The notes beneath the pieces are model-generated. The model saw nothing but the letters and a program-made list of their open reading frames with translations, searched no databases and was not told the origin of the DNA. This document shows positions 19,020-52,876 of a stretch of DNA of 53,049 nucleotides, in pieces (within the stretch, counting starts at the first letter, position 1; every line of letters starts with the position of its first letter). The position numbers and the translations under genes were made by a program. This DNA comes from an uncultured Bacilli bacterium (GTDB lineage: Bacteria; Bacillota_I; Bacilli_A; RF39; UBA660), in contig CANROW010000008.1 in the NCBI GenBank assembly GCA_947632345.1, positions 1-53,049 of the forward strand, written 5' to 3'.

Positions 19020-19235
19020 TCCTCATAAATAAAAAGGAAGCAACCACATAAGGACGAATATCATTCGTGGTGCCACCTTAATTCCATTAAATAATGCTTT
19101 CAAATCTTAACGCGATTACACGCCTCTACCCTTATTGAGTGTCTTCAACATAAATATCCTAAACACTTTCACCAAATGCGTTCTCTCTAAAAAGATAAAT
19201 TATATCTACTCTTCTCACATAGAAGACAATTGTAT
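19020..19235 (-). promoter_or_regulatory. T-box leader upstream of hisS-aspS
   Basis: T-box motif AAGGTGGCACCACGA (TGGCACCACGA at 19065-19075), GGTGAAAG-type stem I motif, specifier region GAA-GACAC (GACAC at 19139-19143), terminator hairpin with T-run before hisS. Confidence 0.9.
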
Positions 19236-50737: not shown

Positions 50738-50768
50738 AAAAGGGCATTCATCGCCCTTTTATTTTTTT
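50738..50768. terminator. bidirectional terminator
   Basis: aaaagggcattcatcgcccttttattttttt. Confidence 0.75.
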
Positions 50769-51320
50769 ATCTTTGATATCATTTAGAATTTGCATAACTT
50801 CTTCATAAACATAAGACTCTGTATTATCATTCTTATATGGTGCGACAAAATCATCTATCTCTGATAAGACTAAATCAATATTATCTTCATTAACTCTATC
50901 GTTAATTATTGCTAAACAGGTATTTTTGTATCCCCTTACAGCACAACCAGCTAGAGCTTTATAATAAGATAATTCTGGCAATTGCGATTTTTTATACAAT
51001 TCATTAGCCATTTCATCAGTTACTACTCTTGGATTATGAAGAATAATTTTATTACTTCTAAAGACGCCGTGGGGCGCTGAAACACTTGGACACTCTATTA
51101 CTTCAGCATCATTGGGTATTTCAACATCATAAATTGTATCGCCACGAACTAACCAGCGCAAAATTTTATCCTCAGTACTAAAATTAAAGCCACCCATTTC
51201 TTTGGGATCATTACTCTCAGGATGCCAATAATCAGCTATGTTAACCTCGTCTATTTTGTAAACTAAATCACTGTTAGCTCCTGATGTTCTACCAAACATA
51301 ACTTTTAAATATTTATTCAT
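50748..51320 (-). CDS. conserved-looking hypothetical protein
   Basis: MNKYLKVMFGRTSGANSDLVYKIDEVN...; RBS aggagaaag before the ATG at 51320. Confidence 0.75.
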   Translation of the reverse strand: MNKYLKVMFGRTSGANSDLVYKIDEVNIADYWHPESNDPKEMGGFNFSTEDKILRWLVRGDTIYDVEIPNDAEVIECPSVSAPHGVFRSNKIILHNPRVVTDEMANELYKKSQLPELSYYKALAGCAVRGYKNTCLAIINDRVNEDNIDLVLSEIDDFVAPYKNDNTESYVYEEVMQILNDIKDKKIKGR

Positions 51321-51339
51321 ATTCTTTCTCCTATTAATA

Positions 51340-51505
51340 ATCATTTAACATAATCATAATAACATAAAAATGATATATCAAAAAGTGTTTTTCTTTACTA
51401 TGATCTTTTACTTCTGGATATAATACTATTTTTCTACCCCCTATAATTTCCTAAATTCCACTGTTCTATAACAGCATTACTTACTTTGCCTAAAAACCTC
51501 TTCAT
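51340..51505 (-). pseudogene. frameshifted remnant of a BECR-like ORF
   Basis: MKRFLGKVSNAVIEQWNLGNYRG* (51505-51434), then a shifted frame GRKIVLYPEVKDHSKEKHFLIYH; N-terminal pattern parallels the ORF at 52032-52412. Confidence 0.45.
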
Positions 51506-51533
51506 GTCTTCACCTAATACCTCTTGTTTTTAA

Positions 51534-51561
51534 TAAAAAAAACTTACACTTTCGTATAAGT
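51534..51561 (-). terminator. intrinsic terminator of copy-1 RNA
   Basis: minus strand ACTTATAC-GAAA-GTGTAAGT followed by T8. Confidence 0.85.
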
Positions 51562-51676
51562 CCTTTTCGAGTAATAAGCCTTTGCATCACTTGGCATCTC
51601 ATCGAATCCTAAGATTCTACACTTAAACTATTGCTAGTCGCGATAGGCGATGTCTCTCTATCCTTAATTATTCTCT
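51534..51676 (-). ncRNA. candidate structured small RNA, copy 1
   Basis: between repeat-borne promoter and strong terminator; hairpins GAATC-TTAG-GATTC and ACTA-GCAA-TAGT; long-range GAGAATAA/TTATT(A)CTC. Confidence 0.45.
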
Positions 51677-51851
51677 TATAATTATAAGAATATCTGATTT
51701 CAACAATACAGTAAGCCACTACAACTCGCACAATAATATTACTATAAATGTTGTAGCAATTCAATATAGATTTTGGACAAAAAATGTTTTTTATCACTTA
51801 TATTTTATCATTACACTTCTTTTTTTTATTTTCCTATATCATAGTAAAAAA
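51675..51851 (-). repeat. upstream repeat copy 1
   Basis: near-identical core with copy 2 (aacaatacagtaagccact...acaataatattactataaatgttg...gcaattcaatatagattttggacaaaaaatgttttttat). Confidence 0.9.
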
Positions 51852-51928
51852 GGCATCCCAAGAAGCTGTTATATATACCAATTTAGAAAATTCAAACATA
51901 AAGAATTACACAATAAAATCAAGTTAAT

Positions 51929-52051
51929 TTTAAAGGAATACATTTTGGTAAAAAACTAAAAGATGAGCTGCACGAAAAAGGACAAGCTGTTTTCAAAAAG
52001 GCTTATCCTAATTTGAAGTTTATAGATATATTTAAGGAGAATTACTTTTAA
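51929..52051 (+). pseudogene. C-terminal remnant ORF
   Basis: open tail ...NFKGIHFGKKLKDELHEKGQAVFKKAYPNLKFIDIFKENYF* with no start codon or upstream coding sequence. Confidence 0.35.
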
Positions 52052-52412
52052 CTTTTATGCACTTCTTCAATTTATCAATTTTGGCTTTACTTTGTGGGTA
52101 GAAAGTAGATACATAAATTGCTTTTTTATCTAATTTTACAATTATACAAACATATTGATCAGTTTTTCCATAATACTTTAAACTATTTTTTTTAGAATCA
52201 TATTCAACATAATATGGTTTCTCAATAACTTTATCTATATTTATTAGAGTGCTGTGATAACTATCTATACTAAAAAAATCATTTGCGTGCTTATTAGTAT
52301 GTATATCAAGTTTTACCGATTGCAAAATATCTTTATTGGCATATTGAGGAATACCGTTTGACTCAGCAATAGCTTCTGAAATAGTACCAACAATTTTTAA
52401 ATTTCTTTTCAA
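52032..52412 (-). CDS. candidate BECR-fold (barnase/ColE5/RelE-like) nuclease-like protein
   Basis: KLDIHTNKHANDFFSIDSYHSTLINIDKVIEKPYYVEYDSKKNSLKYYGKTDQYVCIIVKLDKKAIYVSTFYPQSKAKIDK; TTG start at 52412 behind gaggggag, ATG at 52430 possible. Confidence 0.55.
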   Translation of the reverse strand: MKRNLKIVGTISEAIAESNGIPQYANKDILQSVKLDIHTNKHANDFFSIDSYHSTLINIDKVIEKPYYVEYDSKKNSLKYYGKTDQYVCIIVKLDKKAIYVSTFYPQSKAKIDKLKKCIKVKSNSP

Positions 52413-52433
52413 TGTTATCACTCCCCTCATCAC

Positions 52434-52463
52434 AAAAAAAGCCTACATTCATAGAATGCAGGC
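52434..52463 (-). terminator. intrinsic terminator of copy-2 RNA, directly upstream of the BECR-like ORF
   Basis: minus strand GCCTGCATTC-TAT-GAATGTAGGC followed by T7. Confidence 0.88.
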
Positions 52464-52586
52464 AATGAGTAATATGGTAGGTCTCCCAGTCCCTACTTAT
52501 ATTCTTTCGGCCTAAGCCTACTCGGACTTACTAGCAAGTAGTAAGCGTCAGTGCAAGAAGAATATTTACACCCTCAATATTACTCG
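52434..52586 (-). ncRNA. candidate structured small RNA, copy 2
   Basis: nested stems: 52577-52585/52467-52475 (GAGTAATAT/ATATTACTC), 52558-52565/52499-52506 (ATATTCTT/AAGAATAT), perfect hairpin 52527-52545 (CTTACTA-CTTGC-TAGTAAG), 52477-52481/52492-52496. Confidence 0.55.
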
Positions 52587-52876
52587 CTTATAATTATAAG
52601 AATATCTAATTTCAACATATGTCGAAAAAGATACTATAATTATCTGTTTGTAAAACAAACTCACATAATAACTTATGTGTTGCATATTGTAACACATAGA
52701 AAAATTTGTGTCAACAATACAGTAAGCCACTATCAACTTACACAATAATATTACTATAAATGTTGTTGCAATTCAATATAGATTTTGGACAAAAAATGTT
52801 TTTTATAATTTCATATTTTGTCTTATTATTCATCATTACATATATTTATGTATTTTCCTACAACATAGTAAAAAAA
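52587..52876 (-). repeat. upstream repeat copy 2 (with about 99 bp extra segment)
   Basis: homologous to 51675-51851; extra segment 52618-52716 bounded by tcaaca direct repeats. Confidence 0.9.
52686..52714 (-). promoter_or_regulatory. near-consensus sigma-A promoter in copy-2 extra segment
   Basis: TTGACA (52709-52714), 17-nt spacer, TACAAT (52686-52691) on the minus strand. Confidence 0.7.

Follow-up and report, generated by a model that had tools for sequence, protein, structure and literature searches.

Near the end of contig C8 (CANROW010000008.1), the minus strand of the window, by which we mean the whole 53,049-nt stretch analyzed here from an uncultured Bacilli bacterium, carries a locus that is probably a type III-like two-component module, i.e., a PBECR3 endoribonuclease together with an RNA antitoxin of the skipping-rope family. 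The initial annotation of this DNA, made from its letters alone, had proposed a type III-like system whose nuclease is of the barnase/RelE type, and that proposal is now supported comparatively by the assignment of the ORF to PBECR3, its predicted BECR topology, a covarying RNA, and the tracking of RNA subtypes along the protein tree. Membership of the RNA in skipping-rope (Rfam RF02924) was absent from that earlier reading.

Two modules of one design

The window sequence contains two modules of one design in identical order, as had been claimed (Table 1). The copy 2 ORF is intact and starts with TTG, with GGGGAG upstream, while that of copy 1 is truncated and frameshifted, which direct reading bears out: the remnant begins MKRFLGKVSNAV..., goes on as KIVLYPEVKDHSKEKH in another frame, and keeps only about the first 55 residues, across two frames, matching the intact homologue in L058.

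Table 1. Coordinates of the features of the two modules within the window.
Feature	Position	Strand	Basis or remark
Copy 2 upstream/promoter region	52587-52876	(-)	repeats D1-D5; common to copy 1 and G006
Copy 2 structured RNA, A-type, divergent skipping-rope, predicted RNA antitoxin	52467-52585	(-)	RF02924, covariation, fold z
Copy 2 intrinsic terminator, between RNA and ORF	52434-52463	(-)	10-bp stem + T7
Copy 2 ORF, standalone PBECR3 nuclease, predicted toxin	52032-52412	(-)	126 aa, TTG start
Copy 1 whole module	51345-51851	(-)	same order as copy 2
Copy 1 upstream region	51667-51851	(-)	repeats D1-D5; 84% over 152 nt
Copy 1 structured RNA, B-type, partly decayed	~51569-51675	(-)	B-type core read directly
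Copy 1 terminator hairpin	~51535-51561	(-)	hairpin + T8 read directly
Copy 1 PBECR3 remnant, frameshifted, truncated	51345-51505	(-)	relative of intact L058 ORF

The upstream repeats had been called near-identical; they do align in register (78 nt at 94% and 39 nt at 92% identity), but the wording was slightly generous, the long block being 84% identical and the further blocks ranging from 71 to 87%. Midway through this region, copy 2 carries ~100 nt that copy 1 lacks (spacing of 1012 vs. 912), and its upstream region is 74% identical over 179 nt to that of a genus relative, G006. A promoter-like site in copy 2, TTGACA-17-TACAAT at 52714-52686, has 11 of 12 matches, and a TATAAT can be read directly ~8 nt ahead of the RNA. 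Between the promoter-like site and the RNA, at 52640-52690, lie the palindromes CACATAA-gtta-TTATGTG and GTTTGTTTTACAAAC, which are found in G006 too and are missing from copy 1; they are possibly an operator or hairpins.

The terminators reported as strong in both copies are present. A terminator scan places the copy 2 stem at 52463-52441, followed by T7, and returned two terminators in the region against 0.5 expected. The copy 1 hairpin, ACTTATAC-GAAA-GTGTAAGT followed by T8, is weaker and falls under the scanner's G+C threshold. The copy 1 RNA shows a B-type core on direct reading (GGATAGA..CTATCGCG..GATGAGATG), with its closing stem P1 down to 5 contiguous pairs. When folds were compared with those of shuffled sequences, the copy 2 RNA was better than its shuffles (z -2.28) and the copy 1 RNA was not (z +0.54), as is expected of a decaying copy. 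Copy 1 is a second module, of the other (B-type) subtype, whose toxin has decayed. Directly after it lies a 198-aa ORF (50748-51344) with weak similarity to DUF4866 (E 0.023). Other RNAs on the minus strand of the window are, per Rfam, a 6S RNA (1730-1907) and a T-box leader (19047-19231).

The ORF encodes a PBECR3 nuclease

In a Pfam search the copy 2 ORF matched PBECR3 (PF18812) with an E-value of 1.2e-9 and 38.6 bits against a gathering threshold of 30, with PBECR2 as the second match, and a PBECR3 match was obtained in 20 of 20 representative relatives. An AlphaFold2 model, for which the input alignment consisted of the window protein and the PBECR domains from loci found by DNA pattern, has a mean pLDDT of 76 and a pTM of 0.69. 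Its elements (helices 39-46 and 49-57, then strands 68-72, 77-83, 87-94, and 99-106) follow the BECR layout, in agreement with the fold that had been suggested for this product. In a fold comparison against the PDB, HigB, YoeB, YafQ, ParE, and RelE-type toxins predominate among the ranked matches, none of which has an E-value below 0.001; the best viral fold matches include polyvalent proteins and nucleases.

In the protein alignment (the second row of which has altered first residues, and which served conservation and family scans but not the structure model), H38 is invariant, H42 is near-invariant, and the fourth strand carries a conserved S/T-x-Y-P. A helix histidine with a strand serine or threonine is the active-site pattern given for PBECR nucleases in PMC5512222. 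No type III toxin was detected by Pfam or PADLOC, and the Pfam matches were to PBECR/MuF_C only. A sequence search of the PDB found no relative of the window protein, searches of NCBIfam and PHROGs gave nothing useful, and scans of viral contigs and phage records for close relatives of the protein gave nothing from the window's clade. Taken together, sequence and model identify the window ORF as a predicted standalone PBECR3 nuclease of the BECR fold, and we infer that it would be toxic in the window module.

The RNA is a divergent relative of skipping-rope

No Rfam family matched the locus at its gathering threshold when the window was searched. In a permissive search, the copy 2 RNA aligned to RF02924 over its full length with 16.7 bits (E 2.1), below the gathering threshold of 36.7 bits, and this weak match was kept because of the scores of its relatives. 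The window's order has two main RNA types, A and B, represented in the window by copy 2 and copy 1, respectively, and a smaller type C; A-type relatives score 26-29 bits and B-type relatives 32-53.5 bits, so that B-type RNAs are above or near the gathering threshold, and B- and C-type RNAs are skipping-rope RNAs by Rfam, at up to 53.5 bits. Judging from sequence, the A-type RNA of the window is a divergent relative of skipping-rope rather than a curated member. RF02924 is listed as an sRNA without assigned function and is shown with a pseudoknot in Rfam 14 (PMC7779021). It has a closing stem and a P2 hairpin loop that pairs with the loop of a 3' hairpin, an architecture that the module RNA probably shares.

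Covariation was gauged by exchanging 5' and 3' arms between sequences in 1000 permutations, uncorrected for relatedness. This was preferred to a covariance model of our own because MAFFT misaligns the variable arms of P1 and P5. Covariation of the stems, raised as a check by the initial annotation, was seen in the A-type for P1 and P3 (0/1000 permutations as good for each) and P2 (7/1000). For the B-type, P1, P3, P4, and P5 each gave 0/1000, as did P1, P5, and the P2-loop/P5-loop pseudoknot of the canonical type, the last occurring in 22 different complementary forms. The A-type pseudoknot (UCUUC/GGAGA) is complementary and nearly invariant, with 276/1000 permutations as good, and that of the B-type is complementary but near-constant (125/1000). 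In its single-sequence minimum free energy structure, the window RNA adopts a competing pairing. Tandem Repeats Finder found no tandem repeats in the window RNA, in accordance with what had been noted by eye. A third skipping-rope RNA in the window's own genome (G000:C2:59014-59098, L121) is solitary and degenerate, scores 25 bits, and has no PBECR neighbor.

RNA and nuclease are found together

PBECR3 was found in 56 of 385 genomes of the window's order. More than 30 short standalone PBECR3 ORFs or remnants (~120-150 residues) in that order each follow an RNA of ~120 nt and a terminator-like hairpin, and a hairpin with a T-run was found automatically at 24 of 30 homologous loci. The recurrence of the RNA-terminator-ORF architecture at more than 30 related loci indicates that the pattern in the window is not due to chance. 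Mapped onto the maximum-likelihood protein tree, the RNA types (A, B1, B2, C, and "none") require 5 changes, the minimum being 4, whereas shuffled types require a mean of 22 (0 of 200 shuffles as low as 5). This shows stable co-inheritance of RNA subtype and protein clade; since the genes are closely linked, it is not on its own proof of specific recognition.

To avoid circularity, a second scan started from the RNA, with the canonical RNA core alone being searched for in 85,462 species genomes. It yielded 80 skipping-rope loci, in 69 of which the sequence 5' of the RNA extends for 450 nt or more. A PBECR-like ORF lies directly 5' of the RNA in 48 of these 69 (36 of 52 after near-duplicate removal). 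All 56 PBECR matches are on the strand of the RNA, and 54 of them end no more than 120 nt before the RNA core; the other two both belong to one frameshifted copy (L209). There were no other PBECR matches in 577 kb of sequence. Seven sequences went into the profile used, and a few of them are also present at the tested loci; in a Pfam cross-check, all 23 sequences of the test alignment matched PBECR2. About 30% of the canonical RNAs have no recognizable PBECR neighbor. In one genome, four skipping-rope RNAs of two types (L129, L138, L139, and L141) lie within 5 kb (G672:C4:8099-12977), surrounding a protein of ~206 aa, whose similarity to PemK is only weak, and a frameshifted PBECR3.

Many of the PBECR genes found in this way are standalone, and others form the C-terminus of Phage_min_cap2 (MuF) proteins in head operons, where the RNA sits between the Phage_min_cap2-PBECR gene and the scaffold gene. 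In polymorphic toxin genes, including those of MuF toxins, a small immunity ORF is normally found directly downstream (PMC5576092), and at the MuF-PBECR loci the RNA occupies this position.

When the search started instead from the protein, all three distinct cases of PBECR relatives on plasmids and in a phage were accompanied by the RNA. On a 7.4-kb plasmid of Enterococcus faecalis and Streptococcus thermophilus, a PBECR3 protein (E 1.3e-14; WP_172692014.1, annotated as "dihydroorotate dehydrogenase") has the RNA (54.7 bits) just past its stop codon; a Mycoplasmatota plasmid has the order RNA (44.8 bits), terminator, PBECR3; and a fecal phage with a PBECR relative has an RNA of 60 bits. Gene order thus varies, the RNA being on either side of the PBECR gene on plasmids and phages.

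These positions bear on whether the RNA could be a cis-acting leader, i.e., a riboswitch or attenuator by which a ligand or stress would control read-through to the nuclease gene, an alternative that the initial annotation had regarded as live. The window's order of RNA, terminator, and ORF would also fit cis regulation, and the existence of an alternative pairing in the window RNA would also speak for a leader. A riboswitch or attenuator leader, however, is always 5' of the gene that it regulates, while the RNA comes after the PBECR gene in the majority of the RNA-first loci and in most other lineages. Furthermore, the RNA varies by protein clade rather than keeping one constant ligand-like core, and it survives beside broken nucleases and where there is no downstream nuclease gene at all, as described below. 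We consider a leader unlikely. The variable order, the RNAs beside broken or missing toxins, and the rarity of the reverse point instead to an RNA antitoxin.

RNAs persist where the toxin is broken or absent

A pattern for the A-type RNA had matches in 23 of 385 genomes, and its reversed control had none. Fifteen of the 23 RNAs are followed by PBECR3 (broken in 3), one stands in tandem before a B-type module, which resembles the arrangement in the window, and 7 are toxin-less, 3 of these loci being near-identical. Broken toxins beside a recognizable RNA are also found in window copy 1, L068, and L089. By comparison, an intact toxin of the window's clade without the RNA was seen once only (L082). 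Antitoxins may outlive their toxins and not vice versa, so this asymmetric loss fits an RNA antitoxin.

The same asymmetry helps to separate an antitoxin from a cofactor, guide, or trigger that would act with the nuclease in an active ribonucleoprotein rather than inhibit it. Strict pairing and subtype tracking would suit any stable ribonucleoprotein, but an obligate cofactor predicts the opposite of what is seen, as solitary intact RNAs are common and nucleases of the clade without RNA are rare; we give this possibility the same low standing as the leader. Somewhat less likely still is that the RNA has no antitoxin role and serves in processing or stability, or as a substrate through which the nuclease regulates its own transcript. 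The adjacency of the RNA to the gene, on the same strand and on either side, would agree with this, but solitary RNAs with intact helices, and an RNA beside a MuF toxin that has no immunity ORF, would be left unexplained. A type I-like antisense antitoxin acting on the toxin mRNA is very improbable, for although a small RNA does adjoin the putative toxin gene, it shares the strand of the ORF, duplexes of the start region with the cognate RNA are no better in energy than those with swapped RNAs (543 of 2000 permutations gave an energy as low), and it is structure that is conserved instead.

Proposed mechanism

For the preferred reading of an RNA antitoxin, we propose that the upstream promoter, part of the observed architecture, would drive transcription of the RNA, and that the terminator would stop most of this transcription and so leave the RNA in excess, with occasional read-through giving the nuclease mRNA. 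The folded, presumably pseudoknotted RNA would bind and block the nuclease. Loss of the element, or a shut-off of host transcription, would then release the nuclease, which would cleave cellular RNA. Modules of this kind reside on prophages, on plasmids, and in small islets of the chromosome. In related phages, the RNA, which is observed after the MuF nuclease domain, may take over the part of an immunity protein in protecting the lysogen.

Genomic context

The module lies behind tail, holin, and endolysin genes in G006 and behind endolysin-like genes in L056, L059, and L081 (names read from sequence). Elsewhere it forms a ~0.7-kb islet between other genes. The window copy adjoins a tRNA-Glu at the contig end and has beside it an apparent remnant of an endolysin terminator; we tentatively read it as cargo left by a prophage. 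An enrichment at tRNA integration sites was considered and rejected, as a tRNA lies within ~4 kb on each side in 11 of 34 loci, about what tRNA density would lead one to expect.

A second RNA in the longer PBECR3 clade

The other PBECR3 clade of the window's order has longer proteins and no skipping-rope RNA. Here a different conserved RNA follows or overlaps the 3' end of the gene (L042, L043, L044, L045, L048, L050, L060, L067, L070, and L086), with the pattern AAGAACTCTGCC..~45 nt..ACGYCCAAAACG..AGCGGTACGAGTTCTT. It consists of an outer stem with two hairpins, one of which holds ACGYCC..AAACG. In arm permutations the outer stem P1 gave 0/1000 and the inner stem P2 13/1000, and there was no match to this RNA in Rfam. 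This points to a more general tendency of PBECR nucleases to have RNA partners.

Relation to known systems

The module shares with the type III systems ToxIN, CptIN, and TenpIN (PMC8860590) the order of RNA, terminator, and endoribonuclease as well as, probably, a pseudoknotted RNA. It differs in that their toxins are of the ToxN, CptN, and TenpN families while its own is PBECR, that their RNAs are tandem repeats while its RNA is a single unit, and that most of its relatives have the reverse gene order. The module would work like type III, presuming that the RNA binds the toxin, but is not a member of ToxIN, CptIN, or TenpIN. The PBECR3 and PBECR2 phage nucleases (PF18812 and PF18810) share the sequence family, active-site pattern, and phage/MuF contexts of the window ORF; the portion of PMC5512222 that treats them predicts RNases and solo forms and describes no RNA partner. 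The MuF polymorphic toxins (PMC5576092) likewise have a Phage_min_cap2/MuF N-terminus, a C-terminal toxin domain, and a place in head operons, but where they have an immunity protein gene the PBECR loci have a structured RNA. The nearest mechanistic precedent is AbiF-RCd22 of Clostridioides difficile prophages (PMC12373285), in which a toxic phage protein is neutralized by a single ncRNA built, like that of the module, on a formerly orphan structured-RNA motif; its toxin, in contrast, is of the Abi_2/AbiD/F family and its RNA carries abiF motifs.

No paper linking skipping-rope to PBECR was found in the literature searched, the scope of which left out most preprints and the defining paper of skipping-rope, and we provisionally regard the partnership as new. 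If it holds, RNA-antitoxin systems would gain one new family each of toxins and of RNAs, a leading position of the RNA would cease to be the rule, and phage-borne polymorphic toxins could, as the loci suggest, have an RNA for an immunity protein. The chances seem to us about even that dedicated structured RNAs restrain the whole class of BECR nucleases of phages and plasmids, either skipping-rope (for standalone modules and for MuF toxins packed in phage heads, with the RNA replacing the immunity protein) or, in another PBECR3 clade, the second, multi-hairpin RNA, with solitary chromosomal skipping-rope RNAs serving as host immunity against phage nucleases. Seven loci in Clostridia (L154, L165, L172, L196, L198, L203, and L204) have very similar solitary canonical skipping-rope RNAs with unrelated neighbors, and these are possibly such host immunity RNAs.

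Skipping-rope, an orphan Rfam family, would thereby receive a first proposed function that is quickly testable, and a tractable system for this exists in pCS17-A, the 7.4-kb plasmid of S. thermophilus. On this plasmid (L266:3923-4354) and on E. faecalis p.P4B.1 (L263), a 293-aa protein of unknown family is encoded ahead of WP_172692014.1.
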